A stretch of DNA of 64,000 nt from Pseudomonadales bacterium (GTDB taxonomy: Bacteria; Pseudomonadota; Gammaproteobacteria; Pseudomonadales; Azotimanducaceae). The notes under the pieces are model-generated. The model had not been told where the DNA came from and did no database searches. It saw only the letters and a program-made list of their open reading frames with translations. This document shows, piece after piece, positions 4,847 to 64,000 of the stretch. The stretch's first letter is position 1. Each line of letters starts with the position of its first letter. A program made the translations under genes and the position numbers. The DNA lies in NCBI GenBank assembly GCA_023300545.1, contig JALZVT010000107.1, positions 1 through 64,000 on the forward strand. Direction: 5' to 3'.

Positions 4847-4918
4847 AGCGGGTCTGTTGTCCTGTTGCTGGCGAGTGCCTAAAATAGACGGTGGAGACTA
4901 TCAAATTAGGGAACTCAC

Positions 4919-6151: not shown

Positions 6152-6170
6152 GCGCCAAGGCCCAGCGATC

Positions 6171-6194
6171 GGGGTCAGAATTAATTCTGACCCC
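6171..6194. repeat. Perfect 24-bp palindrome between convergent genes
   Basis: The 12-base arm GGGGTCAGAATT is followed directly by its exact reverse complement AATTCTGACCCC. It sits in the 55 bases between the ends of the thiolase and yqjG genes. It could form a hairpin in transcripts from either side and so act as a bidirectional terminator, although no clear T-run follows. From memory, GGGGTCAGA...TCTGACCCC palindromes are dispersed in many gammaproteobacterial genomes and are associated with REP-type (RAYT) transposases; no such transposase is in the window. Confidence 0.8.
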
Positions 6195-6206
6195 TGTTTC
6201 ACACCG

Positions 6207-7151: not shown

Positions 7152-7173
7152 CGCCGAGTAAAAGGATTGCCAT

Positions 7174-7179
7174 ATTATA
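7174..7179 (-). promoter_or_regulatory. Possible -10 element for yqjG
   Basis: On the reverse strand this reads TATAAT, inside an AT-rich patch in the 73-base divergent region between yqjG and the acyltransferase gene. It would place transcription start about 15-20 bases before the yqjG start codon. No convincing -35 hexamer lies 16-18 bases upstream, so the call rests on the -10 match alone. Confidence 0.25.
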
Positions 7180-7224
7180 TAGGTTTGGATTGTCTCTGCA
7201 GGTGCTGCCAGTTAGTGTGGAGCT

Positions 7225-13490: not shown

Positions 13491-13595
13491 TAACTAAGTA
13501 ACCGGCAGCGAACCCACGATCGGCATCCACCGCAAGCACGCAAGCAAAGTGCCAAAACAGCGAAGATCAGTAACTTTTTCTGAGTACCAGCAACG

Positions 13596-16500
13596 ATGAA
13601 CAGCCCAGCAGTTTTAAACGATATCGCCCTGACCAAGCAACTTCCCGACGGCACGATTGAGTGGGTAACGCTGCAAGCCGTTGGACAAAAAGAACCAGCG
13701 AGTGCCGGAGTGTCGTACACGCTGATCGACCGCAGCCGCAGTTACGAAGCCCCGCAATCGCTCAGGTTAGAACGTCGAGGCGAAGACTTGGTTGTCGACT
13801 CTGAAGGTTCAGAGTTACTGGTCATCACCGGTTTTTTCGCGGCGGTGGGAACCAGTTTTTTCCCGGAGCCTGATATCGCGAGCGGCGCGGGTCCGTTCTC
13901 TGGACCGGCAATCACGCCAGACACCGAGACAGTTCGTGACTCGTCAGGTGGCCCGTTAATCGTTTGGGGCGGCGAGTCAGATGCCAATGACCAGCGCGCT
14001 GAGCAAGAGGCAGCAAGTCTCGTTGAAGAAAGCGGCGTGTCGCCGTGGGTCTGGGTGGGAGCCGGACTTGGTTTACTGGGAATTGCAGCCGCCGCCGGTG
14101 GTGGCGGCGGAGGTGGCGGTGACGACACTCTGACTCCTACCCCGGGTCCCACTCCACCGGAGCCAAGCGATACCACGCCTCCGCAGATCACCTCGAGCGA
14201 GACCGCCGCAGCGATTGATGAGAACAGCAGTGCCGGGCAAGCTGTTTATAGCGCGGTTGCGACGGATGCCGCTGCGGTGACCTGGAGCCTCACCGGCACA
14301 GACGCTGCGCTGTTTAGTATCAACGCCAGCACGGGTGTCGTCACGCTCGTCGAGAACCCCGATTTCGAAACACAACCGAGCTATGAATTCACTGTAGTAG
14401 CGACAGATGCGGAGGGCAATCAAAGCCAGCAATCCGTGGCGTTGGCCGTCAACGATCTAAACGATGCGGCCCCCCGAATAACCTCTGGCGCCATCGCCGC
14501 TACCCTGGAAGAAAACAGCGGCTCGAATCAAGCAGTCTATACCGCCACCGCCGAAGGTAGCGTGACCTGGAGCCTGGGTACTGGGGGTAACGCGGCGCAG
14601 TTAAGCATCAATGCAAACAATGGCGTAGTCACGCTGTCAACAAACCCCGATCACGAAACGCAGTCCAGCTTCAGCTTCACTGTTATCGCCACTGATGCCG
14701 ACGGTAACCGCAGCGAACAGCCTGTGAACCTGACAATCACCGACCTGGATGAGGTTGCACCAACCATAACCTCGGGTGCAGCAACCCAGGCGATCACTGA
14801 AAACGCTGGTGCGGGTCAGCTCGTGTACACCGCCACCAGCACCGATACCGGTGATATCGGCAGCGGCCCAATATCTTTTAGCCTTGCACAGGTTGGCGAC
14901 GCGACGGCGTTCACCATCGACTCAGTCTCCGGCGCGGTTACGTTGGTCGAGAATCCAAACTTCGAGACCCAATCCCGCTTTGACTTCACCGTTATTGCAA
15001 CCGATGGCGCGGGCAATAGTAGCCAACAGTCTGTCTCGCTGATTGTGAGCGATGTTGACGATACTGCGCCGAGCATCACCTCAGGCGCTATCGCCAATCC
15101 CATCGACGAGAACAGCGGTGCCGACCAGGCGATCTACACTGCCGCAGCCGAGGGTCTAGTGACCTGGAGTCTCGATGCAGGCGTCAACTCGGCTGACTTA
15201 AGCATCGATGCGAGCAGTGGCGTGGTGACACTCGCCACTGACCCCGACAACGAAACTCAGGCCGACTATACCTTCACCGTAATCGCAACCGATGCAGTCG
15301 GTAACAGTTCACAGCAGATCGTATCTCTGGCCGTCAATAACCTAGACGAAGTCGGGCCGTCCATTACCTCTTCTGCCACTGCCAATGCAATTAACGAAAA
15401 TTCAGGCGCAGGCCAGCTGGTGTACATCGCCACGAGCACCGACAACGGCGACGTCAGCACTGGCACGACCCAGTACAGCTTGGCACCCGGCGCGGACGCC
15501 GCGGCGTTTAGCATCAACGCCACCAGTGGCGCGGTGACCTTGATCGGCAACCCAGACTTCGAGACGCAATCGAGCTACATGTTCACGGTAATCGCGACCG
15601 ATGCGGCAGGTAACAGCACCCAGCAAGCGGTCTCGCTGGCTGTGAGCGACGTAGACGAGAATGCGCCGCAGATAACCTCCGGATCCACTGCTGTACCCAT
15701 CGACGAAAACATCGGAGTCGATCAGACAATCTTCACAGCAACCGCGCTCGACGCGGCGACCTGGAGCCTGGCGCCTGGCGGCGATGCCAGTGTTTTGAGC
15801 ATCGATGCAAACAGCGGTGTCGTCACGCTCGACATCGACCCCGATCACGAGACGCAACCCAGCTATGCATTTACTGTGATCGCCACCAACGCTGCGGGCA
15901 ACAGTTCCCAGCAGACCGTGTCACTGGCCGTCAACGACCTGGACGAAGTCGCGCCGACCATTACCTCCCAGGCCACTGCCAATGCGATTAACGAAAACTC
16001 AGGCGCGGGTCAGGTGGTCTACATCGCCACGAGCACAGACACCGGCGACATCAGTAATGGCCCGACTCAGTACACTCTGGCAGGCCCAGATGCAGCGGCA
16101 TTCAACATCAATGTAACCAGCGGCGCTGTGACATTGATCGGTAATCCAGACTTCGAGACTCAAGCAAGTTATTCGTTCACCGTCATTGCAACCGATGCGG
16201 CAGGCAACAGCACTCAGCAGGCCGTCTCGCTTGATGTGAACAATTTGGATGACAATGCTCCGGAGGTAACATCCGGAGCAACCGCAACACCCATCGACGA
16301 AAACATTGGAGTCGATCAAGTCATCTATGGTGCAACGGCAAGTGAGGGGGTCACCTGGAGCCTGGGGTCCGGCGGCGATGCCGGAGCGTTCAGCATCAAT
16401 ACCAACACCGGCGATGTTACGTTCAACATCAACCCAGACCACGAAACACAGGCAAGCTACTCCTTCACGGTCATCGCAACCGACGAAGCAGACAACGCTT

Positions 16501-19178: not shown

Positions 19179-21379
19179 CGGATGCAACCAAGTGCCAACT
19201 GCACGATACGCAATTAGAGAAGTGGCTCAAAAACGATGAAATAGCGACGGCGGAGGCGTGGCTCGAGGAGAAACGCAGGGAGCTTGACCCCGAGCGCTGG
19301 TGCGTTCTGCTAAGCAACTGGGCGCGACATTTAGCTTTTGCTGATCGCCACGCGCAAGCCGAGGAATGGCTGCGCAGCGGAGTTCGGCAATACCCTGGCA
19401 ATCTGGAGCTACTTGGCCGACTTGCGGAACTGGTAAAAATACAGGGACGTACACGCGAAGCCATGGCATTGCTTCGTCGCGCGATAGCAGTGGCGAGCGA
19501 CGATGACGAGCAGTGTTTTACACAGTGGCTACGCCTGTCAGCACTCGCGTTGTCAGTAAACCCGCCCCTTGCAAAGATTGCCGCGGAGCAAGCAAATGAA
19601 TTGCTAACACGCTTAAAGCAAACCTCCGGGATGAGCGAAGATGACGGCAGCGAGCGAGCGCTGCAGCTCGAACTGGCCCTGGCGAACTGTGAGGCCCACA
19701 GCGAGAAGGTAAGCGTAGCGGAAGCCCGTTATCAGCACATACTTGAGCAGCAACCGCAGCAGCTTGGCGCCTTGCAAGGGCTTGGTCAGTTGATGTTGCA
19801 GCACGGCCGCATTGACGAGGCTATTGCACTGTTCGAACGGCTCAAGGCGGCCGACGCCGGGCAAGGCTACGGTGCGCTAATGCGTGTACGCCGATTTCCA
19901 GGCGATGTAGAGACACTAAATCGGCTCGAGAACCTAGCACGTACCCCGGGGTTCGAAGGCTCGGTTCGCACCGGATTGCTGTTCCAGCTCGCTGCTGCCT
20001 GGGAGAACCGCGGCTGCTACGAAAAAGCGTTCGCGCTTGCTGACGAAGCAAACGATGCCGCGCGCCGGATGCTGAACTACAACGCCGATCAACACCGTCA
20101 GCGCTGCGCGCGGATTCGTCACGCTTACCCAAAGACGCTGTATCAACATCGTAACCACAGTGGCGTCTCCTCAGAGCTTCCCGTGTTTGTGGTTGGCATG
20201 CCGCGCTCAGGCACCACACTTGTCGAGCAAATTCTTGCAAGCCACAGCGCTATCCACGGCGCCGGTGAATTAGGCACTATTCCACAGCTCATTGCCGGGT
20301 TTGAGCGCTGGGAACGACGCACAGGTTCCGGACGGCACTATCCCGATTGCGTAGATGATCTGGACCCAACTGTACTACGCGGTATCGCCGAACGTACGCT
20401 GCAGGACCTAAGGGCTCACGACCCTGATGCAGCCTACGTGGTCGATAAACTGCCACACAATTTTGAGCACATCGGTCTGATTCGCCTGGTGTTTCCAAAC
20501 GCAAAGATCATTTCGGTACGTCGCGATCCCCGCGATATCGCAATATCCAATTTTCTCATGGACTACGCCGCCAAACACAGCGGCATGGGGTTTGCCTACG
20601 ATCTGGATTGGATCGGACAGCAACTCACAGACCATAACGCGCTAATGCAGCACTGGCACGCAGTGTGCCCGGGCGAAATATTAGAGATCAACTACGAAGA
20701 CCTGGTCGACAACCCTGAAGCAGGTGCCCGCAAAATGTTGGCCTACATAGGCGTCGACTGGGAACCGCAGATCCTCGACTTTCACACCCTGGATCGCTCT
20801 GTTAAGACCGCGAGTGTTTGGCAAGTTCGCCAGCCCCTGTACACAAGTTCGAAAAATCGCTGGCAGCTCTACAGCAGCCACCTGCAGCCTTTGATCGCCG
20901 CAACAAATCGTCCCATGCGCAGTGAGCCCATTGAGATGATCACCCTGCCTGTACCGGGTTTGCTGAACACTGGGGTCGATCTGTTCCGCCGCGGTGACCT
21001 CGATGGTGCAGAGTACCGCTTCAAGCAATTGCTCCAGCACGCGCCAGATCACGCAGCCGCTGGCTATATGCTGGGGGTGGTCTATGTGCAGAAGGGTTCG
21101 CTGGTCGCGGGTGTGAAATTACTGGAAGATGCGTTGCAGCGTTGCCCGTGGAATCGTCACTGGCAGGCCGATCTGGCCAAAGCTTACCGGCTAACCGGCC
21201 GATCCCGCGACGCAGACGCATTGACCGTCAGCACGGCGACCGTCGGCACGGCGGTTGCGGGGCGGCCCACCGACGATATGAGGCAACAGTCCAATTCCGG
21301 ACCTGTGGGTCTCGACTATCTCTACTTTTCGGAAGAATCAGCATGCGCAAACTCTGGGCCCTCCTCGCCTACCGGCTAA
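19175..21379 (+). CDS. TPR-containing sulfotransferase
   Basis: A 734-residue protein. Residues 1-330 are helical, TPR-like repeats (AMALLRRAIAVAS, LGALQGLGQLMLQHGRIDEAI). Residues 337-349 read VFVVGMPRSGTTL, the 5'-PAPS phosphosulfate-binding loop, and ISVRRDPRDIAISNF supplies the 3'-phosphate-binding segment, so the middle is a sulfotransferase of the Sulfotransfer_3 type. Further TPR-like repeats fill about 600-700. There is no signal peptide, so it should act in the cytoplasm. The start is a GTG overlapping the adhesin stop (GTGA), and its 3' end overlaps the TolC-like gene by 37 bases. The position inside a secretion operon suggests that it sulfates the adhesin or a surface glycan; the acceptor is inference. 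Confidence 0.88.
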   Translation: MTDATKCQLHDTQLEKWLKNDEIATAEAWLEEKRRELDPERWCVLLSNWARHLAFADRHAQAEEWLRSGVRQYPGNLELLGRLAELVKIQGRTREAMALLRRAIAVASDDDEQCFTQWLRLSALALSVNPPLAKIAAEQANELLTRLKQTSGMSEDDGSERALQLELALANCEAHSEKVSVAEARYQHILEQQPQQLGALQGLGQLMLQHGRIDEAIALFERLKAADAGQGYGALMRVRRFPGDVETLNRLENLARTPGFEGSVRTGLLFQLAAAWENRGCYEKAFALADEANDAARRMLNYNADQHRQRCARIRHAYPKTLYQHRNHSGVSSELPVFVVGMPRSGTTLVEQILASHSAIHGAGELGTIPQLIAGFERWERRTGSGRHYPDCVDDLDPTVLRGIAERTLQDLRAHDPDAAYVVDKLPHNFEHIGLIRLVFPNAKIISVRRDPRDIAISNFLMDYAAKHSGMGFAYDLDWIGQQLTDHNALMQHWHAVCPGEILEINYEDLVDNPEAGARKMLAYIGVDWEPQILDFHTLDRSVKTASVWQVRQPLYTSSKNRWQLYSSHLQPLIAATNRPMRSEPIEMITLPVPGLLNTGVDLFRRGDLDGAEYRFKQLLQHAPDHAAAGYMLGVVYVQKGSLVAGVKLLEDALQRCPWNRHWQADLAKAYRLTGRSRDADALTVSTATVGTAVAGRPTDDMRQQSNSGPVGLDYLYFSEESACANSGPSSPTG

Positions 21380-53578: not shown

Positions 53579-54724
53579 TTAGAACCAGAACGACACAAAT
53601 GCCCGGATAACCGTGGCGTTGAACTCGTACAGTGGCTCTCCACCAGCGGCAAAGCTGCCTTCGACGCTTAGATCTCTGAAATCGTCGTACTGGAACTGGA
53701 CGTAATCAAAAAACATACTGACTTGCCCCTTATTGACGAACGGCAGCCATTCAGTTTCAAATTCCTGGCTCACCCCAACACCCACCGAATGAGTATTAAA
53801 ACTGGCCAATTCTTTGTCTCTAGCCAAGAAATTCTGCTGGTTGGAGCGTGAAAACAGGTCGTTGTAGAAGTCGGCAGACGTCTGGTTGTAATAGCGGTAG
53901 CGCACATCCAGCGTTAGTCCTTCCTCCAACGGATGGGTATAGGCCAATTCCACGTTATAAGCATTGATACCCCATGAATCGGTGTAGTACCGGCCTTCCG
54001 CCTTGAGGGCTGCGCGATAGGGCAGATAATACAATCCGCGCAGCGCCAATGCGCTGCTGGTGCGGGTGTTCGGGTAGCGCTCAGACTCGTAGTTGAACCC
54101 TCTGGTTGCGCTCGGGTCTTCAAACCGCACCTGCCGGTACGGATTATTGAGAAACCCTTCGTCAGAGATCCCTTCGTAGTTCAGGCTCACAACCATACTG
54201 GGCGTGACTACCTGGGTGAGATCAACGCGCCATGACTGATGCTTGGCATCCGCCTCAAACGTATCGTCGCCGTTTCTGCTGATGGTGTCCCAACCGCGCG
54301 AATATGCAATACCTAAGGTGGTCAAATCACCAAAGAAATCCTGGCTAACACCGAGGCGAACCGAATTACCTTCGTAATCGTCTTCGTCACTCTTGGTCCA
54401 GGCAAGTCCCATTGTGGTCTTGCCGCGCAGGTAATCTATGCCCGCGCTGGTTTGTTTGCGTTCTTCTGAGTAACTACTGGCCGTCGTAATAACGTCAATC
54501 GATGCACTGGACACAGAGTCGACGTAATAGTTACCCCACACCGACACCTTGTCTGCAATGCTCTTGCGAACGAGAACAGAAGGGCCATCAACGCTAAGAC
54601 CACCACCAGAGTAACCATGGTGCAAAAAGTCTACCCGGTCTGCTGGCAATACTGCTGCGCTGGCCTGCATGGCGCCGATCACGAACAGCGCGACACTCAG
54701 AACGGCCTTATTAATAGGGAGCAT
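53579..54724 (-). CDS. DUF3570 family outer-membrane beta-barrel protein
   Basis: A 381-residue exported protein. ATG 54724 gives a signal peptide ending MQASA, and it lies one base after the DUF4266 stop, so translation is coupled. The mature protein has alternating aromatic and polar strands through its length (MGLAWTKSDEDDYEGNSVRL, LTLDVRYRYYNQTSADFYN) and closes with a C-terminal phenylalanine (AFVSFWF), a beta-barrel insertion signal. The YSGGGLSVDGPSVLVRKS segment and the DUF4266 neighbour identify the DUF3570 family. No function is established. The barrel may be the outer-membrane partner of the DUF4266 lipoprotein. Confidence 0.82.
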   Translation of the reverse strand: MLPINKAVLSVALFVIGAMQASAAVLPADRVDFLHHGYSGGGLSVDGPSVLVRKSIADKVSVWGNYYVDSVSSASIDVITTASSYSEERKQTSAGIDYLRGKTTMGLAWTKSDEDDYEGNSVRLGVSQDFFGDLTTLGIAYSRGWDTISRNGDDTFEADAKHQSWRVDLTQVVTPSMVVSLNYEGISDEGFLNNPYRQVRFEDPSATRGFNYESERYPNTRTSSALALRGLYYLPYRAALKAEGRYYTDSWGINAYNVELAYTHPLEEGLTLDVRYRYYNQTSADFYNDLFSRSNQQNFLARDKELASFNTHSVGVGVSQEFETEWLPFVNKGQVSMFFDYVQFQYDDFRDLSVEGSFAAGGEPLYEFNATVIRAFVSFWF

Positions 54725-54725
54725 T

Positions 54726-54971
54726 CTAGTTGCAACCACATCCGCCGCCGGCACCGCCTTCGGCACCTCGGGCGCCTTCGCGTACTTGATACACATGATG
54801 TATGAATGCGCTCGCTACGGGATCGCGACCAAAGCTCATGATGGGGTCAGCCAGCTTGTTTCGTTCATAGGGGCTAACCCAAGGCTTGATATCAAGACTC
54901 GAACAGCCGCCACTCGCCAAGGCAAGCATAGCCACCAGTCCACTCAAAATAGTTTTACGATAGAGACTCAT
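54726..54971 (-). CDS. DUF4266 domain lipoprotein with Gly-Gly-Cys-Gly-Cys-Asn C-terminus
   Basis: An 81-residue lipoprotein: signal peptide with modified cysteine C23 (SGGC), then PWVSPYERNKLADPIMSF and ASAFIHHVYQVREGARGA, the full DUF4266 pattern. It ends in a glycine-rich tail carrying C78 and C80 in GGCGCN. The tail invites metal binding or thiol modification, which is inference. AGGAG lies seven bases before the ATG. It sits ten bases after the upstream barrel gene and one base before the DUF3570 gene. From memory, DUF4266 and DUF3570 genes are commonly neighbours and often accompany ApbE-type flavin transferases or TlpA-like proteins; neither is in this window. Confidence 0.88.
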   Translation of the reverse strand: MSLYRKTILSGLVAMLALASGGCSSLDIKPWVSPYERNKLADPIMSFGRDPVASAFIHHVYQVREGARGAEGGAGGGCGCN

Positions 54972-54981
54972 TGGGGATCTC

Positions 54982-55692
54982 CTAGAAAAAGACGGTTAAG
55001 CCAGCGGTAAGTTCGAAATTGTGTTTGGTTTCGCTCTCACCCAACAGATCACTTTTGAAAACGTGATCGCGAACGTCGACCCGAAATGCCAGCCAGTCGG
55101 TCGCAGCCAGTCGGTAACCAAGACCACCGTTGACCGTAAAGCGGTCGTCACCACCAAACTCTGATGAGCCAATGCCTGCGATCAGATACAGCCCACCTTT
55201 AAAAGCCCAACGGTCGGTGATGAACGCCTCACCGGGCAGCACATTGATTCCGACACTCATGTTGTAGTAACTAAAATCACGCTCATCGTCGGTTAACAGT
55301 TGCGCACCGCCAGAGAGCTGCTCGAAACTGGTTTGCCCCAAGGTCGAACTTGCATAGGCCGCCTCGACAAAGAAATCTTCGGTGATGTGATAAGCAGCGC
55401 GCACGCCATAGACAACGTCACTGCCGAAGTCTTCAACGCTGAGAACGCCGCCGAATGCGCCAAGCTCAAAATTTTCGCTATCGAGTCGCTCGATTTTCAC
55501 TTCGCGACGTTCAGGTTCGCGAACAATCAACGGTTCTAGCTCCAGGTCGTCAGCAGTCGCTGCATTTGCGTTCTGGACGCCAAACCCGGCTGTAAGTACA
55601 ACGGCACCAGCCAGCAGTACTACTCCGGCTAGTCGCTGTGCGTATTTCTTTAGGTGCTTTGCGTTAACTTGTTCTGAGCGAGCGGTCATCAT
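54982..55692 (-). CDS. Outer membrane beta-barrel protein
   Basis: A 236-residue protein. The start ATG 55692 overlaps the stop of the preceding gene (TAATG); the frame is open further upstream but inside that gene. A long N-region (KHLKKYAQR) and hydrophobic core end near ANAA, giving a signal peptide of about 45 residues. The mature part is an eight-strand-type barrel (DVVYGVRAAYHITEDFFVEA, FSYYNMSVGINVLPG, FKGGLYLIAGIG, LTAGLTVFF), ending in the C-terminal phenylalanine typical of outer-membrane porin-like proteins. Its place between an SH3/barrel gene and DUF4266 suggests a shared envelope complex; function unknown. Confidence 0.82.
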   Translation of the reverse strand: MMTARSEQVNAKHLKKYAQRLAGVVLLAGAVVLTAGFGVQNANAATADDLELEPLIVREPERREVKIERLDSENFELGAFGGVLSVEDFGSDVVYGVRAAYHITEDFFVEAAYASSTLGQTSFEQLSGGAQLLTDDERDFSYYNMSVGINVLPGEAFITDRWAFKGGLYLIAGIGSSEFGGDDRFTVNGGLGYRLAATDWLAFRVDVRDHVFKSDLLGESETKHNFELTAGLTVFF

Positions 55693-56507
55693 TACTGCTT
55701 GCCCAGAAAGACGCTGAATCCTGTCTTCCATTCGTTGATCTCCTGGTTGTCGTCCCGACTACTGAGAACGGTATGGCGCCGATATTCAAAATTCATCACA
55801 AACCGTCTGGTGAGGTATATGTTTGCACCCAGCCCTGCATTAACGATCTCGTCCGTTCGATCTTCGGCCTGGATGACTGTGGTTTGTGGTTTGGTGTGGA
55901 TTATGCCGGTGCCAATGGTGAAATAAGGTGACACGCGCCACTCTGGAAATGGGTACATCACCACATTTACGGTGCCCATCACGCCGTCAGAGAAGTTACC
56001 CAATAGCTGGGTTCCTGTGAGTCGTAACGAGATGTTTCGGGTAACACCATAAGCAAGGTAACCGTCAATGGTACGGGCGCCATCGAAATCACCCGCCGCG
56101 AATCCCATCTCCCATTTACGAGTCTCGAAGTCACCGCGAGTAACGCTGCCAAAATCAATGGCTTCGCCATCCAGATCTAAGGTGTCTCTGATTTGATTTA
56201 AAGGCACCCAACCGCGTTTGCTGATGTTTGCACCACGACGCAACTCAACCTTGAACCAGTCAGTTCGCCTCTTGAGTACCTTTATGGTCTCGCCTTCGCC
56301 GGCGACGTAAAAAACCGGATAACCACGACCCGGCCCTGTGTGCATTTCCAAAAATGGATCGGCAACGCGAACTTCAGGTGTTTCGTTGCTAAAAAGGTCG
56401 CCTATTCCAGCCTGAGCGGCCATAGCGTTACACGCCAACACACAGGCGAGCAGCACCCGACAACGAGTAGCTATTGTAATTTTCATTATTGTCTTCAATC
56501 TCTGCAC
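55692..56507 (-). CDS. SH3 domain plus outer-membrane beta-barrel protein
   Basis: A 271-residue exported protein. GTG 56507 is used because AAAGGA lies six bases upstream; ATG 56486 (MKITIATRC) is an alternative. A signal peptide ends near AMAAQA. An SH3-like domain follows (LEMHTGPGRGYPVFYV, WFKVELRRGANISKRGWVPL), probably cell-wall binding. The C-terminal half is a beta-barrel (DGYLAYGVTRNISLRLTG, PYFTIGTGIIHTKP, FVMNFEYRRHTVL), ending SVFLGKQ. The order SH3 then barrel could anchor the barrel to peptidoglycan from the periplasm. Its stop overlaps the next barrel's start, and the diheme gene ends 72 bases upstream. Confidence 0.82.
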   Translation of the reverse strand: MQRLKTIMKITIATRCRVLLACVLACNAMAAQAGIGDLFSNETPEVRVADPFLEMHTGPGRGYPVFYVAGEGETIKVLKRRTDWFKVELRRGANISKRGWVPLNQIRDTLDLDGEAIDFGSVTRGDFETRKWEMGFAAGDFDGARTIDGYLAYGVTRNISLRLTGTQLLGNFSDGVMGTVNVVMYPFPEWRVSPYFTIGTGIIHTKPQTTVIQAEDRTDEIVNAGLGANIYLTRRFVMNFEYRRHTVLSSRDDNQEINEWKTGFSVFLGKQ

Positions 56508-56579
56508 CGTTTGTCCTTTCCGGTTAGTCGCGAGTCTGTTTTAGAGCATCAATGGTTGAATGCCAGAACGATTGGTCGA

Positions 56580-59249
56580 TCAAGGCGGAACGGCAAACGG
56601 GTTGTTGTAGTACTGAGCACCCACATCGAGCCATTCGCTGAGTAGCTTAAGTTCCGTTCCTGAGAGATAGCCGTCATGGCTAGCCCCGGTCGAAAATGGC
56701 GCAAAGAAAGCTTGAGACGCAGCAGCACCGCCCACACTCATAGACGGCGTAACCCGATTCCCTTCCAACACGGGAACCGGCTGCCCTGCCCCGTCAAGAA
56801 TCAGAGTGCCATCTTCGTTAGTTTCAAATACCTGATTGCCATCGGCATCGAATACTGGATTTCCAATGTCCTGCAACGCGCCGTTGTTTTCTTCCTGCTC
56901 GTTGTCGTTAAAAAGCAGCTCACGATAGCTATTAAAGTGATCCGCCTGATCGGGAGATAAACCGTCCGACAAATCAAGCTGAGCCAATGGAACCTGCAGT
57001 ACGCCTGCAGTATCAGCAGGTGAATGACAGGTTGCACAGGTAACGTCAGTCAGCACAGTGACGCCATCTGCCGCGAGTGTTGAGCGATCGATCGTCCACA
57101 GCGGATGAATGTGGGTCTCGTAATTCACCGTAGTTCGACAGGCGGAATTCCAGGTTTGAACGCAGTTAACCGTTGTTGGCGGCGGCGTCCGTAGGTCTGT
57201 AAAGCGATAGTCGATATCAGCGTCTTTGGCGCGTACTGCAGGGTCAGTCCAGATATCCGTAAAGCGCAGATCTAAAGATGGCGTGCGTATCCCGTTTATT
57301 CGAGCGTTCACCTGCGCCATTGACTCGCCGGCGTTCGCAAACAGGCCGCCTTCGGTATTCGGATAGGGCGAGCCATCGACCGGAGCGCCCAAATGGGCTG
57401 AAGGCAACTGCGCATCTGCTCGACCATGAGCAACGGTGGAATCAGAATCATGACAACCCACGCATTCCCGCTCTTCGCCGGGGCGCATCTGCAACCAGTT
57501 TTGATGTCGCGGGCCAACTCGTTTGCCATCGGCATCGACAACACTGATGTAGAACGCAACGTTCGCAGGCACTTTCAGTTTCACGCTGCCATCGGGCTCG
57601 ATGGGAACATAGCCCATAATTTCACGCATCAACTGATCGCGAGAGCGGCCGAATGCTGTGTTGTTGATATCGACAATATCGTCGTCAGCCATTGAGACGG
57701 CCTTAACCAGACGTAGAAACCTAGCCGGGCGTTGCTCAGCAGCGGTTTGAGCGGGGTCAGCGATAGCCGCTATGGGCACCAACGCTTCGCCATCAATATC
57801 GTAGACACTGCGGATGTGCAGTACGCCCACACCCTCAGAAACCAGATCGGGGTCAAGATCAAGTCCAGCAACGCCATCCGGAATAGAGGCAGGCGACGCC
57901 CGATTTTCCATCACAACCGCTTCGGTTAACGCATCACCCTCTTCCGGCACAATAATGGGTTGCTGGGTGTTTTCAGTAAGATCGTGGATCCACACACCAA
58001 ACAGTGGATCAGCCTCTTCTAGGCCGAGCTCAAGATTGTCGTCGGTGCAAGGCATTACGTCAGTGCCGTCTGTTAGCCGGCACTGACTCCAGGTTACTAG
58101 TAACCGGTCTGTGCCGTCATACAGAGGTGCAATACTTGCATAACGCCCTGCTCGAGAAATAGCTTCGGTAAGTGTTAGATCGCCGGTAATCAACAGTTCC
58201 TGAGCTTGCGGAGTTACACCAGCCCCATTGGGTGTGGCAATGGTGTTGTCTGTGTAATTCGCAGTATCAATTGCTACCGGCAATGCACCTAGCTGGTCAG
58301 ATGCAGCACTAGGTCGTAACAACGCAAATAAACGGCCATCCGGGAGCTCCTGGGCTTCCACAAATTCAATATCAAAGTCTTCCGACAGGCTGCTGTGACT
58401 GTTAAGGCCGTACAGCAACTCTTGATTGCGACCATCAGGAGACATTGTATAAAGGCTGATTTGATCGTAATCGTCGATGTTGTCCCAGCGGCTATAGACG
58501 ACCCGACCATCACTCAAGAGCGCCGGATCCATATCTGAGCTTTGATTAAAGCTGATTTGCTGTAAACCCGAGCCATCGGTTTCTATGGTATGCAGTGTCA
58601 CTGCTTCTCGATCGCGATCTTCGTCGAGGTGAGAAAACTGCGGCTTCCCCTCATCCAGCAATATTGCTTTTGACTGACGCTGTCGCGTCGAGGCAAACAA
58701 AATTCGACCGTCTACCAAAAATCGTGGCGATAAGTCCTGCCCTTCTTCCGCAGCAATATCCGACTCAATGATTCGCTGCAAGGTCGTACTCGGATGGTCA
58801 TACAGCCAAATATTCCAGGTGGGCTGCTCGTCGTCATCGAGATCCGGGTCGCGCGGTGCGCGCATCGCAAACAGCAGCTGCGCCCCATCGTACGAGGCAG
58901 ACAGGTCTTTGACGTCGTAAAGCGGCAGATTGCCGTCTTTATCTACGTCAAACACACCTTCTGTTATTACTCGCTCAGCCGCACTCGGCGACGCGCGATC
59001 ACGAATGATCAACTGTGCGCCTGGGCGAAACTGAGCTGGATCGCGAACATTGTTTGACGGCAACACATCAACCTCGTTGCCATCTATAGACAGACGTAAA
59101 GAGCGCTTGACGTAAGCCAGCGGAAAGTCGACAGCGACTGGATCCGCTTCCTGTCCGCCGCCCAAAACGCCACTGTCCGATGATGATGAACCACCACCAC
59201 AGCCAACGAGTAACACACCTAACACGCCAGATGCTATGCAACGTCGCAT
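56580..59249 (-). CDS. HzsA-related diheme c-type lipoprotein with TolB-like propeller
   Basis: An 889-residue lipoprotein. ATG 59249 gives a signal peptide with lipobox LLVGC; an extended frame to 59351 adds no family features. The N-terminal half has TolB/PD40-like propeller repeats (LSASYDGAQLLFAMRA, LSPRFLVDGRILFAS, ALLSDGRVVYSRWD). The middle holds the hydrazine synthase alpha-type segment EPDGSVKLKVPANVAF, then PGEERECVGCH (C596, C599, H600). A second heme site, CATCH, is at 738-742. HzsA itself is part of anammox hydrazine synthase, but relatives without HzsB/C are widespread and uncharacterised; no HzsB/C gene is here. It probably resides in the periplasm or outer membrane and leads the leftward operon. 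Confidence 0.85.
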   Translation of the reverse strand: MRRCIASGVLGVLLVGCGGGSSSSDSGVLGGGQEADPVAVDFPLAYVKRSLRLSIDGNEVDVLPSNNVRDPAQFRPGAQLIIRDRASPSAAERVITEGVFDVDKDGNLPLYDVKDLSASYDGAQLLFAMRAPRDPDLDDDEQPTWNIWLYDHPSTTLQRIIESDIAAEEGQDLSPRFLVDGRILFASTRQRQSKAILLDEGKPQFSHLDEDRDREAVTLHTIETDGSGLQQISFNQSSDMDPALLSDGRVVYSRWDNIDDYDQISLYTMSPDGRNQELLYGLNSHSSLSEDFDIEFVEAQELPDGRLFALLRPSAASDQLGALPVAIDTANYTDNTIATPNGAGVTPQAQELLITGDLTLTEAISRAGRYASIAPLYDGTDRLLVTWSQCRLTDGTDVMPCTDDNLELGLEEADPLFGVWIHDLTENTQQPIIVPEEGDALTEAVVMENRASPASIPDGVAGLDLDPDLVSEGVGVLHIRSVYDIDGEALVPIAAIADPAQTAAEQRPARFLRLVKAVSMADDDIVDINNTAFGRSRDQLMREIMGYVPIEPDGSVKLKVPANVAFYISVVDADGKRVGPRHQNWLQMRPGEERECVGCHDSDSTVAHGRADAQLPSAHLGAPVDGSPYPNTEGGLFANAGESMAQVNARINGIRTPSLDLRFTDIWTDPAVRAKDADIDYRFTDLRTPPPTTVNCVQTWNSACRTTVNYETHIHPLWTIDRSTLAADGVTVLTDVTCATCHSPADTAGVLQVPLAQLDLSDGLSPDQADHFNSYRELLFNDNEQEENNGALQDIGNPVFDADGNQVFETNEDGTLILDGAGQPVPVLEGNRVTPSMSVGGAAASQAFFAPFSTGASHDGYLSGTELKLLSEWLDVGAQYYNNPFAVPP

Positions 59250-59685
59250 GACCAACCCTGATAAAGGATTAGCACCGGCGTTGTGTTCTTTGTGGTTAGA
59301 CAGCCATTTACACGCACTGTCTAACAACTGAATTTTTCGGTTTTGGGGCAAAAGATTTGCCTCGTAAACTTACAAGTTGCTCATATTCTTTCATAAGGCT
59401 TACACGCTCTTTGTGATGCGCAGCACAGCCAGCATGAGTCATGGTAATCACCTGAACCGACAACTGCCGTTGCGCGCCAGAAACCCATCAAAGGAACGAC
59501 CTATTACAGGTCACCTGCCCTTGAGAAACGGGACACGTATCACAGCTTGAATTTCACATTTACCCGAACCTTACATTTCGAATACACAGTCATCGCTTTG
59601 GACTAGCGGTGCTTGAGTGGATTGAGTATCCGACGCTACCGGCACGCAACGATCGCTGCCCTCGGATAAAAGCAGGGAGTACACC
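59250..59685. other. Divergent intergenic region, 436 bases
   Basis: It separates the leftward HzsA-related operon from the rightward cytochrome/LamG/DUF1501 set, so promoters for both should lie here. No convincing gene is present; the frame extending the HzsA-related protein to 59351 is not counted. A weak TTGAAT...TTACAT pair (18-base spacer, around 59550-59580) is the best forward promoter I see and is unreliable. A cluster of overlapping inverted repeats is listed separately at 59498-59517. AGGGAG at 59674-59679 is the ribosome site of the next gene. Confidence 0.6.
59498..59517. promoter_or_regulatory. Overlapping inverted repeats, candidate operator
   Basis: GACCT-ATTAC-AGGTC (59498-59512) overlaps CAGGT-C-ACCTG (59507-59517), so half-sites GACCT, AGGTC and ACCTG alternate within 20 bases. 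The position, in the middle of a divergent promoter region, suits a shared operator for both cytochrome gene sets. No regulator gene is nearby. Confidence 0.35.
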
Positions 59686-60927
59686 ATGAATCTTTTGGCC
59701 CTCGGCCAGGGGCGACGCAGTAACGTTGCGTCTCGCCTGATTTGTGTTGCTTTAACATGCGCTGTTTGTTTTGCAGCGCCTAGTGTCGTTGCTGACGATC
59801 GCAGTCAAGCCAAGCGCATTCACGATCGCTTGGCTGGCGTTCCAGCGACCGAAGCAGAACTTGATACGCTCGCGTCTCAGGTTGCTACTGACCCCATGCA
59901 AGCAGCCTTTGCCGCGATGGAAAACCCCGACTTCTACAACGTAACTCTGAAGAATTTCGCCGCGCCTTGGACAAATCGCGACTCTGATGTATTTGTTGCA
60001 CTTAATGACTACACCGCAACCATCATTGGCATGGTTCGCGACGATCGCGATTTTCGAGGTATTTTGAGTGATGACATCGTCTATCACGGTGCAGGCGTAG
60101 CCGGCGTACCGGCCTATTCCACGACCAACAATTCCCATTACGAAGCACTGGAAACCCAAGGGGTTAATCTTAAAGAGAACCTCACAGCAACACCCCAGTC
60201 TTCACTGAACGGGCTGCCCGCGGCTGCGACCGCGGGAGTCATTACATCAAGAGCGGCTGCAAAGTCGTTCTTCATCGACGGTACCAACCGCGCGATGTTC
60301 CGCTTCACGCTGCTCAATCACATGTGTAATGACATGGAGCAGATGCAGGACAGCACCCGGACTCCGGACCGTATTCGCCAAGACGTATCACGCAGTCCTG
60401 GCGGCGATAGTCGCGTTTTCCTCAATAATTGTATTGGCTGTCATTCTGGCATGGACCCCATGGCTCAGGCATTTGCCTATTATGATTACAGCTACGACGA
60501 AGAGAATGACCCAGAAGGCGATAACGGCAGAATCAATTACAACGGCTCAGGCGCACAAGATCCTGTAACCGGTAGCCGAGTTACGGAAAAGTACTACAAC
60601 AACGAAACAACCTTCCCCCAAGGCTTCCGTACACCGGATGAGTCTTGGAGTAACTACTGGCGCGCGGGACCTAACGCGGTGCACGGGTGGTCAAGCTCTC
60701 TCCCGGGATCGGGTAGCGGGGCTAAGTCTATGGGCCAAGAAATGGCCAACAGCCAGACCTTTGCTCAATGCCAGGTAGAAAAAGTATTCAAAAACGTGTG
60801 CGTACGACCGCCAGCTGACGGTGAGGATCGGAACCAGATTAACACCATGGTTTCGTCCTTCCAAAACTCGGGCTACAACCTTAAACAGGTCTTTGCAGAG
60901 TCTGCTGTTTACTGCATGGGCGAATAG
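59686..60927 (+). CDS. Exported monoheme c-type protein
   Basis: A 413-residue protein with a signal peptide (about residues 1-36, ending PSVVA). One heme-binding motif, CIGCH (C249, C252, H253), lies in FLNNCIGCHSGMDPMAQAFAYYDY, a context like the C-terminal heme-binding domains of planctomycete-type DUF1588/DUF1585 proteins; the match is from memory and only local. The N-terminal part is helical and I do not recognise it. AGGGAG six bases before the ATG is a good ribosome site. It leads a same-strand set with the LamG lipoprotein (12-base gap) and a DUF1501-like gene. A periplasmic electron-transfer role is inferred. Confidence 0.78.
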   Translation: MNLLALGQGRRSNVASRLICVALTCAVCFAAPSVVADDRSQAKRIHDRLAGVPATEAELDTLASQVATDPMQAAFAAMENPDFYNVTLKNFAAPWTNRDSDVFVALNDYTATIIGMVRDDRDFRGILSDDIVYHGAGVAGVPAYSTTNNSHYEALETQGVNLKENLTATPQSSLNGLPAAATAGVITSRAAAKSFFIDGTNRAMFRFTLLNHMCNDMEQMQDSTRTPDRIRQDVSRSPGGDSRVFLNNCIGCHSGMDPMAQAFAYYDYSYDEENDPEGDNGRINYNGSGAQDPVTGSRVTEKYYNNETTFPQGFRTPDESWSNYWRAGPNAVHGWSSSLPGSGSGAKSMGQEMANSQTFAQCQVEKVFKNVCVRPPADGEDRNQINTMVSSFQNSGYNLKQVFAESAVYCMGE

Positions 60928-60939
60928 CCTAGGGGACGT

Positions 60940-63396
60940 ATGATGACTATTAGCAAAATTCTACTCGGCACCCGCCTACTCGCTCTATTAACTGTTAGCA
61001 GTCTTATTAGCGCGTGTGGTAGCGGCAGTGGCGCTTCGGTCTCAGAGATTGCCCCCAGTTCAACACCGGAGGTGAGTAACTATTCTGGGCCCGCACCCGC
61101 CACGGCTGACGTACAGAACTTTAGGCTGGCAGTATGGGACAACCTGGTCCCTAACAATCGCTGCGGTTCCTGCCATAACGAGTCGCAAACGCCACGGTTT
61201 GTTCGAGCAGACGACATTAACATCGCTTTCGATACGGCCAACACTCTAGTCGACCTTAGCGACCCTTCAAAATCACTGCTTGTGAACAAGGTGCGCGGCG
61301 GCCATAACTGCTGGCTCACCGACGCCAATGCCTGCGCCGACATCATTGTTTCTTACCTCAACAACTGGGCTGGCGACTCACTCGCCGGAGCCGGAAACTC
61401 AGTTACACTCACTGCCCCAGCGCTGTTCAAGCCGTCTGCAAGCAAAAACTTCCCAGACACTTCTGCAGAATTTAGCAGTACGGTTTATCCGCTGCTGACG
61501 ACCTACTGCGCAGACTGTCACTCCGACACTTCGCCCACCCCACAGCAACCCTATTTTGCGTCAACAGACGTCGACACCGCCTACCAGGCCGCCAAAACTA
61601 AAATGGACCTCGCAACCCCCAGCAGCTCTCGGTTTGTTCTGCGTCTGGGCAGCGAGTTCCATAACTGCTGGAACAATTGCTCTAGCAACGCCATGGAAAT
61701 GGACAATGCCATCACCGCCCTCGCCATCGACATTGAGGCGACTGAGGTCGATCCAGATTTGCTGACCAGCATGGCGCTGTCATTGCCAGACGGAATTGTG
61801 GCAGCCTCCGGCGGCCGGTTTGAAACCAACGTCATCGCTTTATATGAGTTCAAAACTGGCTCTGGCAGCACAGCGTTCGACACCAGTGGTATCGAACCTG
61901 CTTTAAATTTGACCCTTTCTGGCGATGCCGATTGGGTCGGCGGCTGGGGCATTAGCATGGTCAGCGGCAAGGCTCAGGGATCAACCAGTGCGAGTGCGAA
62001 GCTGCACCAGCAACTAACCAGCACCAACGAATATACGATTGAAGCCTGGGTTGTTCCCGGCAACGTCACCCAGGACGGCCCCGCCCGAATTGTTAGTTAT
62101 TCCGGCGGCACTGATGATCGCAACTTCATGTTGGGCCAAACACTGTATGACTACGATCTGTTCAACCGAACCGATCAGACCGGCCCAGATGGTGAGCCTC
62201 GCTTGTCGACCCCAAGCGACGAAGAAATTTTGCAAGCGACCCTGCAGCACGTGGTTGCCGTTTATAACCCAACTGACGGTCGTCGCGTCTACGTCAATGG
62301 CGAACTCGCCTCAGAAGGTGACGATCAAACGCCTGGCCTGCTCAATGACTGGAACGACACCTACGCTCTAGCTCTTGGTTCTGAAGTAGACAACATGGAC
62401 CGCTGGGCGGGTACTGTGCGCTTGCTCGCCATCCACTCGCGCGCGCTTACCCAGGAACAAATCCAAACCAACTTCGAGGTTGGAGTGGGTGAAAAATACT
62501 ACCTGCTATTTAACGTCAGTGAGCACGTTGACATTGACGATGCGTACATCGTGTTTGAGGTCTCCCAGTTTGACTCTTACGCCTATCTGTTCGACACCCC
62601 GTTCTTTACGGTGCTGGGTAGTGAAACACCAGTGAACATCCCGGTACGTGGCCTAAGAATCGGAATCAACGGTCGCGAAGTTCTTGCCGGCCAGTCCTAC
62701 GCGAATCTAGATACCACAATAGACAGCGGCAGTTACACCGAATCTGCAGGCCAGCTACCACTGTCTGCGCTTGGCACCGTTGTTGGCGTTGAAAAAGGCC
62801 CCGAATTAGACGAGTTCTTTCTCACATTCGAGCAGCTTGGTGGCGCGACAAACGTGTTTGTCGAGGCAGCGCCCCCTGCCCCTCAACCCCCTGCTGATGT
62901 GCCTCGTGCGCCGTCAATTGGTGTCCGCGATTTTGCGGAGCTAAATGCCAGTCTGTCTATCATCACCGGCATTCCGACCACAAACACCAATGTGTCTGAA
63001 ACATACAACCAGGTGTTTCAGGCGCTACCCATCAATCCTGCGATCGAAGGCTTTATCTCGTCGCAACAGATGGCTATCACCCAACTCGCTATTCAATATT
63101 GCAATGAGCTGGTCAGCAGCCCGGCTCGGCGCACCGAGTTCTTTCCAGGATTCGATTTCGACGCAAACGTAAGCCAAGCGTTCAACAATACCGCTTTAGT
63201 GATTGACCCGCTGCTTGAGAGAGGCATCGGAACCGCAATCACTCAGCCAGACCATACAGCCGTACGGTCTGAGCTTGATGGGTTGATCACTAGGCTTTCG
63301 TCCTGTGGGGGCAGCTGTGAGCCGGACCGCACGGAACGTGTGGTGAAGGGAGCTTGTGCGGCCGTGCTGGGGAGCGCGGCGGTGCTTGTGCAATAG
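60940..63396 (+). CDS. Diheme lipoprotein with LamG-like domain
   Basis: An 818-residue lipoprotein (lipobox LISAC). Two cytochrome-like units occupy the first 250 residues. Each has a CxxCH site (CGSCH at 75-79, CADCH at 190-194) followed by an HNCW motif with extra cysteines (GHNCWLTDANAC, FHNCWNNC). About residues 300-530 are a LamG/concanavalin-like domain (ALYEFKTGSGSTAFDTSG, YTIEAWVVPG, HVVAVYNPTDGRRVYVNGEL), often a glycan-binding fold. The C-terminal 290 residues are unrecognised. AGGGGA precedes two consecutive ATGs; the second (60943) has the better spacing. It lies 12 bases after the monoheme gene. Surface or periplasmic redox/binding function is inferred. Confidence 0.82.
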   Translation: MMTISKILLGTRLLALLTVSSLISACGSGSGASVSEIAPSSTPEVSNYSGPAPATADVQNFRLAVWDNLVPNNRCGSCHNESQTPRFVRADDINIAFDTANTLVDLSDPSKSLLVNKVRGGHNCWLTDANACADIIVSYLNNWAGDSLAGAGNSVTLTAPALFKPSASKNFPDTSAEFSSTVYPLLTTYCADCHSDTSPTPQQPYFASTDVDTAYQAAKTKMDLATPSSSRFVLRLGSEFHNCWNNCSSNAMEMDNAITALAIDIEATEVDPDLLTSMALSLPDGIVAASGGRFETNVIALYEFKTGSGSTAFDTSGIEPALNLTLSGDADWVGGWGISMVSGKAQGSTSASAKLHQQLTSTNEYTIEAWVVPGNVTQDGPARIVSYSGGTDDRNFMLGQTLYDYDLFNRTDQTGPDGEPRLSTPSDEEILQATLQHVVAVYNPTDGRRVYVNGELASEGDDQTPGLLNDWNDTYALALGSEVDNMDRWAGTVRLLAIHSRALTQEQIQTNFEVGVGEKYYLLFNVSEHVDIDDAYIVFEVSQFDSYAYLFDTPFFTVLGSETPVNIPVRGLRIGINGREVLAGQSYANLDTTIDSGSYTESAGQLPLSALGTVVGVEKGPELDEFFLTFEQLGGATNVFVEAAPPAPQPPADVPRAPSIGVRDFAELNASLSIITGIPTTNTNVSETYNQVFQALPINPAIEGFISSQQMAITQLAIQYCNELVSSPARRTEFFPGFDFDANVSQAFNNTALVIDPLLERGIGTAITQPDHTAVRSELDGLITRLSSCGGSCEPDRTERVVKGACAAVLGSAAVLVQ

Positions 63397-63455
63397 AGCG
63401 CTGATAGCGCTCTAACAACGACTACGGCCATGACACCAGGTTTAAAGGAATACCC

Positions 63456-64000
63456 ATGTTAAAAATCAGTAAGCGCAATTACGACGACCCGCTTCGCCAT
63501 GAAAGCCACGCGCGGCCTCGCACCCGTCGAGAATTCCTGTCCCAGGGGTTCATTGGCGGTGCTGGAATGTGTGTTGGTGGCGCGTCGATAACGATTGGCA
63601 GCGGCAAAGACGCTCACGCTCTGTTTTTAGATCCGGAACTCGCTGACATCGTCCGTAACCAGTGCGGCGTCGCGGTTAACGGATCAGGCAAAATTCCATT
63701 CATCTGCTTCGACCTTGCCGGTGGTTCAAGCTCTGCCGGTTCCAATGTTCTTGTTGGCAAACAGGGTGGACAGCTCGATTTTCTGAGCACCGCCGGCTAT
63801 GAGCGACAGGGCTTACCGGGCGACATGATTCCTTCGATCATGAACCCACAGACGGGTGCTAGCGACTTTGTTGATCAACAGCTGGGCCTTGCGTTTCATT
63901 CTGATTCCGCGTTTCTGCGCGGCATGCTCGAGAAAGTAACCAGCCCTGCCAACCGCGCGAACATCAACGGCGCCGTGATCCCTGCCCGCTCAGAAAATGA
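63456..64000 (+). CDS. DUF1501-like exported protein, N-terminal part (continues beyond window)
   Basis: Only 181 codons lie inside the window, with no stop. AAAGGAA precedes the ATG. A Tat-like signal TRREFLSQGFIGG (R24, R25) is followed by a small-residue hydrophobic stretch, so folded export by the Tat system is likely. KIPFICFDLAGGSSSAGSN, GYERQGLPGDMIPS and LGLAFHSDSAFLRGML resemble the start of DUF1501/sulfatase-fold proteins that accompany cytochrome-type DUF1588/DUF1585 genes in planctomycetes and other bacteria. It is 59 bases after the LamG lipoprotein on the same strand and probably in its operon. The enzymatic part is not visible, so activity is not claimed. Confidence 0.7.
   Translation, partial: MLKISKRNYDDPLRHESHARPRTRREFLSQGFIGGAGMCVGGASITIGSGKDAHALFLDPELADIVRNQCGVAVNGSGKIPFICFDLAGGSSSAGSNVLVGKQGGQLDFLSTAGYERQGLPGDMIPSIMNPQTGASDFVDQQLGLAFHSDSAFLRGMLEKVTSPANRANINGAVIPARSEN

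Follow-up and report, generated by a model that had tools for sequence, protein, structure and literature searches.

A conserved divergent redox gene unit of Gammaproteobacteria associated with an Agl/Glt-like motor core

Eight genes for exported proteins, arranged in two divergent arms between positions 53579 and 64000 of a Pseudomonadales bacterium contig (JALZVT010000107.1, whose first 64,000 nucleotides are the window analyzed here), form a conserved unit in many Gammaproteobacteria, a conclusion that is well supported. The unit accompanies an Agl/Glt-like gene set that codes for TPR proteins, TolQ, two TolR proteins and a TonB protein of the AgmX/PglI type, and the unit and this motor core very probably constitute one functional system. 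The evidence is evenly balanced, in our judgment, on whether the unit provides the redox side of an envelope-spanning machine that is driven by protons, controlled by CRP and directed at a surface polymer. An earlier note on this DNA had proposed an envelope redox complex; its exported redox locus and likely common control have stood, but the name DUF1501 that it gave to one protein has not, and it did not see the Agl/Glt-like set, TlpA or ApbE, whose presence alters the nature of the system.

The divergent order, strands and spacings of the eight genes were confirmed. On the minus strand, the left arm codes for a DUF3570 protein described earlier as barrel-like (53579..54796, likely start 54724; PF12094, 145.8 bits, above the Pfam cut-off), a small exported DUF4266 protein with a CxCN tail (54726..54971; PF14086, 80.6 bits, above the Pfam cut-off), an outer-membrane β-barrel of the OMP_myx_plus family (54982..55731; TIGR04565, 167.6 bits for a cut-off of 60), an SH3 and β-barrel protein (55692..56507) and an HzsA-related diheme, lipoprotein-like cytochrome (56580..59351, likely start 59249). 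The SH3-barrel protein falls just short of two family cut-offs (SH3_3, 26 bits for 27; OMP_b-brl, 28.5 for 28.7), and its gene is syntenic in most loci compared. The plus-strand right arm codes for a PSD2/DUF1585-related monoheme exported protein of 413 residues (59686..60927), a diheme LamG lipoprotein-like protein (60940..63396; PF13385, Laminin_G_3, 79.3 bits, above the Pfam cut-off) and a Tat-exported protein (63456..64000) whose gene extends beyond the window and ends at position 65087 of the contig. Seventy-two bases separate 56507 from 56580, 12 separate 60927 from 60940, and 59 separate 63396 from 63456. The five CxxCH motifs claimed for three of the proteins were recovered, two each in the HzsA-like and LamG proteins and one in the 413-residue protein, and all five are invariant in alignments of 29 HzsA-like, 28 monoheme and 28 LamG sequences. 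No RNA family was found at the locus.

Conservation was assessed in 58 relatives and in 143 genomes drawn evenly from the class, in which absences are subject to draft assemblies; in one genome search, homologue scoring was limited to at most six candidates per genome. Among the relatives, 20 have both the HzsA-like and the LamG-diheme gene, one has HzsA only (G184), one has LamG only (G146, on a contig that begins inside the neighboring gene) and 36 have neither (p 2e-13 by Fisher's test, which ignores phylogeny). The corresponding numbers among the class genomes are 19, 2, 4 and 118. Independent occurrence of the two halves in related genomes, which the earlier note had named as evidence against its reading, is confined to one relative for each half and does not refute that reading. 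Exceptions in arrangement speak against strict coupling: in a divergent subtype (G044, G056, G126, and G184) the left half and motor genes are present with the right half not adjoining, and G064 and G075 carry the right half at another place. The tally of 30 adjacent pairs was made without the short loci L018 and L062 and hence missed G076, which is divergent in another locus map. In a further set of 80 named loci, the nearest 80 of at least 548 and all recruited by the Tat gene, the HzsA-like gene lies beside the LamG/"DUF1501" set in every one of the 70 loci that extend far enough upstream. The Tat protein itself was called in 73 of the 80, a low count because overlapping calls had been removed. 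Strain records that contain the unit include those of Alteromonas, Paraglaciecola, Glaciecola, Microbulbifer, Aliikangiella and Pleionea. A chance neighborhood is ruled out by this conserved synteny and by co-occurrence across relatives, class genomes and named loci.

Co-occurrence of the unit with the motor core was tallied with one query, the large TPR protein, which is found in 40 of 41 HzsA-bearing genomes. Among the 58 relatives, both genes are present in 21, HzsA only in none, TPR only in 4 and neither in 33, and the class genomes gave 20, 1, 15 and 107, respectively. The occurrence of the TPR protein without an HzsA-like gene in 4/58 and 15/143 genomes implies that this protein has other uses or partners. 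Core genes lie at most 15 kb from the unit in 21 of the 41 genomes. They are not within this distance in 20, including that of the window; some of these have short contigs, and both contigs are long in G147 and G182. The core joins sometimes after the DUF3570 gene and sometimes after the Tat gene, which ties both arms to it; core genes follow the right arm in G128, G131, G048, and G189, and the Tat gene in 10 of the 80 named loci, six of them from Microbulbifer. In the window genome the core is found on another contig (C1:40931-51679), together with TlpA and a contig-cut ApbE (C1:50143-51679), as identified with purpose-built HMMs whose labels (TPRs, TLPA, APBE, and others) may catch unrelated family members.

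The TolQ-like, TolR-like, AgmX/PglI TonB-like and TPR proteins are encoded in a single cluster, as is also described for the gammaproteobacterial core in PMC3169522. Core representatives score 69.6 bits for the AgmX/PglI domain (cut-off 40), 96.6 for MotA_ExbB and 47 for ExbD. The transmembrane Asp is kept in 18 of 18 rows for TolR2, and TolR1 has Asn at that position in 18 of 19 rows, the nineteenth being another ExbD-like gene. The TolQ/TolR motor, AgmX/PglI TonB-like protein, TPR proteins and barrels are shared with the Myxococcus Agl-Glt and Agl-Nfs systems, the latter of which transports a glycan polymer, and with the gltCDEG-aglRQS core present in Gammaproteobacteria, whose role was left unknown by Luciano et al., 2011 (PMC3169522, PMC3858216). 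In contrast to Myxococcus Glt, the core described here falls far short of the NCBIfam equivalog cut-offs (GltG, 24.3 of 650 bits; GltJ, 21.8 of 450; GltE, 32.2 of 225). It also differs from Agl-Glt and Agl-Nfs, as these are presented in the relevant sections of the two papers, by its ties to HzsA-like, PSD2-like and LamG-diheme cytochromes, TlpA, ApbE, DUF4266/DUF3570 and an alkaline phosphatase (AP)-like Tat protein.

The gap between the two arms contains a CRP-type palindrome, TGTGATGCGCAGCACA (59412..59427, unstranded), with one mismatch to TGTGAn6TCACA. Ninety-five divergent gaps were compared; counts refer to 85 of them, after exclusion of 10 that were near-duplicates or shorter than 60 bases, and densities to all 95. 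A site with at most one mismatch occurs in 29/85 gaps (0.9 expected), and 25/85 have no site within two mismatches. The density of such sites is 1.208 per kb in divergent gaps, 26 times the 0.046 per kb of the remaining gaps in these loci; coding DNA has 0.033. In the 85 gaps, neither an FNR pattern nor any of five scrambled palindromes exceeded chance, and CRP half-sites at a spacing of 5 or 7 were at chance level; those spaced by 4 and 8 were modestly more frequent than chance, with at most two mismatches in 23 and 24 gaps, respectively (shuffle maxima 20 and 21; approximately 12-13 expected). Scans with simple sigma-70 and terminator patterns gave no excess over shuffles. The window genome has one match to PF00325 (Crp). 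The strong enrichment of CRP-type sites lends substance to the earlier suggestion that both halves have a common control region: the divergent gap is likely a shared control site of both arms, where CRP is predicted to bind.

The DUF3570 family is flavinylated by ApbE, and in ApbE-DUF3570-thioredoxin-DUF4266 clusters it is found in association with DsbD and VIT1 iron transport (PMC8238504). All four families occur in the window genome, DUF3570 and DUF4266 in the window and TlpA and ApbE on C1. Also as in those clusters, DUF4266 has a CxC tail (CGCN in 34/34 alignment rows) and DUF3570 has two sites of similar pattern, in the window protein the candidate flavinylation sites DSVSSAS and DVITTAS in a motif alignment. 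The published [S/T]GA[S/T] motif is replaced in the latter by SSAS and TTAS, and is present in 6/33 genomes. Mostly SSAS/TTAS-like sites, together with the cytochromes and motor core, thus set the present system apart from the clusters in the pertinent part of PMC8238504.

In the right arm, the LamG protein has CxxCH motifs at residues 75 and 190, with a conserved H-N-C-W ... C stretch after each of them, and C75, H79, H122, C124, C190, H194, H241, C243 and the lipobox Cys26 are invariant in 28 sequences. The monoheme protein has a single CxxCH at residue 249, the position of which (CIGCH) is invariant. PSD2 (PF07624) matches 34 of 40 of its homologues at E<=0.01 (best 3e-07), and the window protein scores 18.3 bits, under the cut-off of 25.8. 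A PDB sequence search gave nothing convincing for it (best E 0.55), and a fold comparison by VIA against 53 chains only, uninformative either way, gave no clear match (best Z 4.3). The last protein has a twin-arginine motif (TRREFL) at residue 23, in agreement with its earlier designation as a Tat substrate. It had been named DUF1501, which we take to be PF07394; by sequence this identity is excluded, as neither the whole gene nor 46 homologues gave a match to that family at E<=0.1, the gene itself having no Pfam match at all at this threshold. It has no NCBIfam match at E<=0.01 and no convincing relative in a PDB sequence search (best E 0.14). A homologue model (pLDDT 75.1) aligns with choline sulfatase over 229 residues (VIA Z 11.6, rank 1, rmsd 4.0), with Z still 10.3 at rank 50, and Foldseek matches to it are weak (best E 0.011). 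As modeled, the protein has an alkaline-phosphatase-superfamily fold, which does not imply function.

For the HzsA-like protein, the match to the middle domain of hydrazine synthase alpha was confirmed (HZS_alpha, 62.3 bits vs. a cut-off of 26.6), and 5c2v_A is its sole PDB relative at E<=0.01 (E 9.3e-20). With that chain it shares a CxxCH middle domain, a second C-terminal heme and weak N-terminal matches, its own CxxCH motifs being at residues 630 and 772. Residue 35 (59249) is probably its true start, which places the lipobox Cys at residue 51. This Cys51 is invariant in the 29-sequence alignment and, like Cys26 of the LamG protein, makes its protein lipoprotein-like; judged from these residues, both look like lipoproteins. 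The family match might indicate a true hydrazine-synthase-like enzyme that forms an N-N bond, which we regard as extremely improbable. In hydrazine synthase, Tyr591, four residues past His587 of CxxCH, is the proximal heme ligand (PMC12607021); the window protein and the majority consensus of the 29 sequences have Ser at this position instead. In addition, the hydrazine-synthase equivalog NF052339 scores 45.1 bits for a cut-off of 800, and a Pfam search matched the beta/gamma subunits to none of the eight window proteins. On the missing Tyr ligand and the equivalog score we reject hydrazine synthesis, and these differences and its lipoprotein-like character distinguish the protein from hydrazine synthase alpha. 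More than 600 structural matches are reported for HzsA-alpha relatives, and the passage of PMC12758564 that deals with them gives no experimentally confirmed other function for the top ones.

Three other readings account for parts of the system. An extracellular electron-transfer conduit, in which barrels and lipoprotein cytochromes pass respiratory electrons through the outer membrane to an extracellular acceptor or from a donor and the motor genes are unrelated, would agree with the five c-type heme sites, the outer-membrane barrels, the likely lipoproteins and the DUF3570 protein, since DUF3570/ApbE clusters are interpreted as extracytosolic electron transfer in PMC8238504; we consider it unlikely, as no protein has more than two heme sites, the linkage to the motor core is left unexplained and no quinol-oxidizing membrane cytochrome was noticed next to the unit. 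Still less probable is a planctomycete-type sugar-oxidation pair of PSCyt/PSD and DUF1501-like proteins that merely sits beside an unrelated DUF3570 operon. PSCyt proteins of Verrucomicrobia and other PVC bacteria carry LamG modules, in Verrucomicrobia they associate with sulfatases, and nothing is known of PSCyt/PSD functions according to the section of PMC5615132 on these proteins. The right arm resembles them by its PSD2-like C-terminus, CxxCH, LamG module and conserved unknown neighbor, and the PSD2 matches of the homologues and the divergent subtype also favor such a pair. The features are, however, split here over two proteins, with PSD2 below its cut-off in the window and a connection to the HzsA/Glt-like system, and the HzsA-like and LamG genes are kept together class-wide with a common control site. 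The core genes that follow the right arm in four genomes and ten named loci also argue against it. Comparably improbable is a gliding or surface-movement machine whose Agl/Glt-like core serves motility or adhesion while the redox proteins regulate or mature surface disulfides: the core parts and TIGR04565 barrels would fit, and TlpA and CxC proteins suit thiol maturation, but the HzsA-like, LamG-diheme and AP-like proteins are unaccounted for.

In the preferred reading of a motor-driven redox machine, the locus would be the outer-membrane and periplasmic redox half and the Agl/Glt-like core the energy half. A cAMP-CRP-type regulator, presumed to bind the site observed in the divergent gap, would turn on both arms. 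The motor core, by analogy with the Agl/Glt/Nfs and Tol/Exb class, might then reach across the envelope and act upon the SH3-barrel and barrel proteins, while the LamG-diheme protein and the phosphatase/sulfatase-like Tat protein might hold, bind or cleave a glycan-like polymer. Electrons would be exchanged between this polymer on one side and, on the other, the monoheme protein, the HzsA-like diheme protein and the flavin site of DUF3570; TlpA and the CxC tail of DUF4266 might serve as thiol partners. We infer the surface polymer and the electron flow from three features only, the LamG module, the AP-like fold and the PSD resemblance. More tentatively, the system might belong to an undescribed gammaproteobacterial class in which a TolQR/Agl-type proton motor is coupled mechanically to a surface assembly of three cytochromes, a flavin barrel and a phosphatase/sulfatase-like protein that oxidatively processes a polymer while moving it, although we rather doubt this.

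Searches of open-licence PMC papers brought up no listing or passage with this combination of genes. Three puzzles, namely the Glt/Agl core, the HzsA-alpha relatives and the PSCyt/PSD proteins, meet here, together with the DUF3570/DUF4266 module, in a single conserved unit that carries a CRP-type site, and its presence in named strain records means that a single deletion series could address all these questions jointly. A motor to which Luciano et al., 2011 (PMC3169522) assigned no function can thereby be linked to a redox process and put to the test; if true, a motor-driven redox machine would provide a function for the gammaproteobacterial "core complex".

The divergent unit at 53579-64000 comprises, on the reverse strand, genes for DUF3570, DUF4266, TIGR04565 barrel, SH3-barrel and HzsA-like proteins and, on the forward strand, genes for a 413-aa PSD2-related protein, a LamG-diheme protein and a Tat protein. 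The positions, strands and spacings of the eight genes are all as the earlier note had described them, as are the five CxxCH haem sites spread over three proteins and the single twin-arginine protein. Pfam and NCBIfam assign the DUF3570, DUF4266, TIGR04565 barrel, HZS_alpha and LamG proteins, and the SH3-barrel protein falls slightly below its Pfam cut-off. The Tat gene extends past the window end, to C107:65087, and is followed in this genome by genes that we take to encode a methyltransferase and LpxC; among the loci mapped, the window's own family is the only one in which both genes lie 3' of the unit, and they were therefore left out of the system. Elsewhere in the window, 11736-21379 encodes a TonB_C protein, then a protein of 1860 aa with cadherin/Ig repeats and a TPR-sulfotransferase protein, possibly a surface adhesin set.

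Conservation was searched with the HzsA-like and LamG proteins in 58 relatives and 143 class genomes. Independent occurrence of the two halves in related genomes, which would have counted against the earlier proposal, is not the pattern seen: both proteins are found in 20 of the 58 relatives, the HzsA-like protein alone in 1, the LamG protein alone in 1 and neither in 36. The corresponding counts in the class sample are 19, 2, 4 and 118, three of the four LamG-only matches being partial and weak. In G146, the sole LamG-only relative, a contig end falls inside the neighbouring gene. Of the 41 HzsA-bearing genomes, 30 have the halves next to each other and 29 have them in divergent orientation (31 and 30 with G076 added); in G137 the right half is on the same strand as the left. 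Among the ten HzsA genomes without adjacent halves, contig ends cut four (G048, G160, G161, G176), the right half lies elsewhere in G064 and G075, and G044, G056, G126 and G184 have a divergent HzsA subtype (35-39% identical) with no adjacent right half; within this subtype, the search recovered a LamG relative in G044 alone, elsewhere in the genome (34% identity). In the 80 named loci found through the Tat protein, the nearest of at least 548, an HzsA-like gene is present in 70, and in each of the other ten the sequence preceding the match is shorter than 3.4 kb. One locus, L234, belongs to a MAG titled Klebsiella pneumoniae, probably a mislabel.

The suggestion that both halves share a control region is strengthened by a CRP-type palindrome in the gap between them, at 59412-59427. 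Such palindromes are perfect in 7 of 85 non-redundant divergent gaps (0.1 expected from shuffles), have at most one mismatch in 29 (0.9 expected) and at most two in 60 (13.1 expected, shuffle maximum 23); 25 gaps have no CRP-type site within two mismatches. In these gaps, the FNR pattern and scrambled palindromes were at or below chance, and half-site spacings of 4 and 8 modestly above it. Sites with at most one mismatch reach a density of 1.208 per kb in the divergent gap; at the same loci, the density is 0.046 for the 397 other gaps and 0.033 for coding sequence. Pfam Crp (PF00325) has one match in the window's genome, and CRP is predicted to bind at the gap.

The only PDB relative of the HzsA-like family at E<=0.01 is 5c2v_A (E 9.3e-20), and its best-matching segment extends to the first CxxCH. 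Whereas the haem of hydrazine synthase carries a Tyr ligand, according to the available text of PMC12607021, Ser replaces it in the window's protein and in the family consensus. The accessible part of PMC8238504 describes the DUF3570 family as an ApbE substrate and DUF4266 as bearing a CxC tail. The DUF4266 tail here is CGCN in 34 of 34 rows. At the first candidate flavin site of DUF3570, 33 genomes have [S/T]SAS (26), SGAS (5) or TAAS (1), or have lost it (1), and [S/T]GA[S/T] occurs at any place in 6 of the 33. ApbE genes are often near the unit despite these mostly non-[S/T]GA[S/T] sites, and DUF3570 may be considered a candidate for flavinylation.

On the right side, a relationship to PSD2 is seen in 34 of 40 homologues of the 413-aa protein. 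The LamG protein carries two CxxCH units, and after each of them an HNCW stretch includes an invariant His and Cys. The Tat protein matched no Pfam family. The model of a homologue aligns to sulfatases, phosphodiesterases and phosphatases with Z 11.6-10.3 among the 50 best rows, higher than the 7 to 8 that the tool's own note gives as a usual best Z; Foldseek alone gave no match to this model at E<=0.001. DUF1501 belongs to this superfamily, that of alkaline phosphatase, and the label DUF1501, which sequence does not bear out, is defensible at the fold level only.

Families other than the window's have a longer left operon. In 12 of 13 gaps examined, a TlpA-like gene separates the barrel and DUF4266 genes; DUF3570 is followed by ApbE (sometimes), a ~190-aa exported protein and an Agl/Glt-like motor core: three TPR proteins, a TolQ-like protein (MotA_ExbB, 96.6 bits), two TolR-like proteins and a TonB-like protein with an AgmX/PglI C-terminal domain (69.6 bits, cut-off 40). 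One TolR-like protein retains the transmembrane Asp (18/18 rows); the other has Asn in its place in 18 of 19 rows, the 19th being a different ExbD-like gene in G044. In G181 a second SH3 and barrel pair, thus duplicated in one genome, lies between ApbE and the core (C8:43500-44600; L101 16681-17569). In G169 an additional thioredoxin-like exported protein is encoded 3' of DUF3570, besides the normal TlpA (L100 3229-3996).

All 21 HzsA-bearing relatives and 20 of the 21 HzsA-bearing class genomes have the large TPR protein, in total 40 of 41 distinct genomes, the exception being G034; this protein also occurs without an HzsA-like gene in 4 relatives and 15 class genomes. Of the 41 genomes, 21 have core genes no more than 15 kb from the unit, in many cases 3' of DUF3570; in G128, G131, G048, G189 and ten named loci (six from Microbulbifer) the core genes are 3' of the Tat gene. 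The window's genome carries the core on contig C1, and immediately upstream of it are TlpA and a contig-cut ApbE; the parts absent from the window therefore exist in this genome, split off. Adjoining this core are genes that we take to encode an amidohydrolase (L151 7214-9554) and a two-subunit xanthine-dehydrogenase-like enzyme (4370-7181). Within the 19-20 kb of sequence covered, the core loci of G019, G086 and G193 (L158, L157, L160) lack every member of the eight-gene unit; they encode a longer TonB-like protein (~460 aa), perhaps reflecting a different use of the core.

In the available text of the sources, Agl-Nfs uses proton-motive force to move a glycan polymer over spores and the gammaproteobacterial core is proposed to be basal transport machinery without a known task (PMC3858216, PMC3169522, PMC5349195), and PSCyt/PSD proteins with LamG modules are tied by context to carbohydrate use (PMC5615132). 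From these reports together with the conservation found here, we propose that the unit and the motor core would form an envelope-spanning redox machine, proton-driven and CRP-controlled, acting on a surface polymer. Its conservation, linkage, control site and families are matters of observation. We infer that the parts would form a physical complex, that a polymer would be the substrate and that CRP would bind its site; the path and direction of the electrons are likewise putative. The earlier interpretation, an envelope complex moving electrons to or from an extracellular or periplasmic substrate with LamG for binding, finds support in outline and was incomplete. No report of this combination was found in the part of the open-licence PMC literature that was covered. 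We would place the system among machines of the Tol/Exb/Agl kind, as a variant with a redox module that is new to that kind in the text covered.
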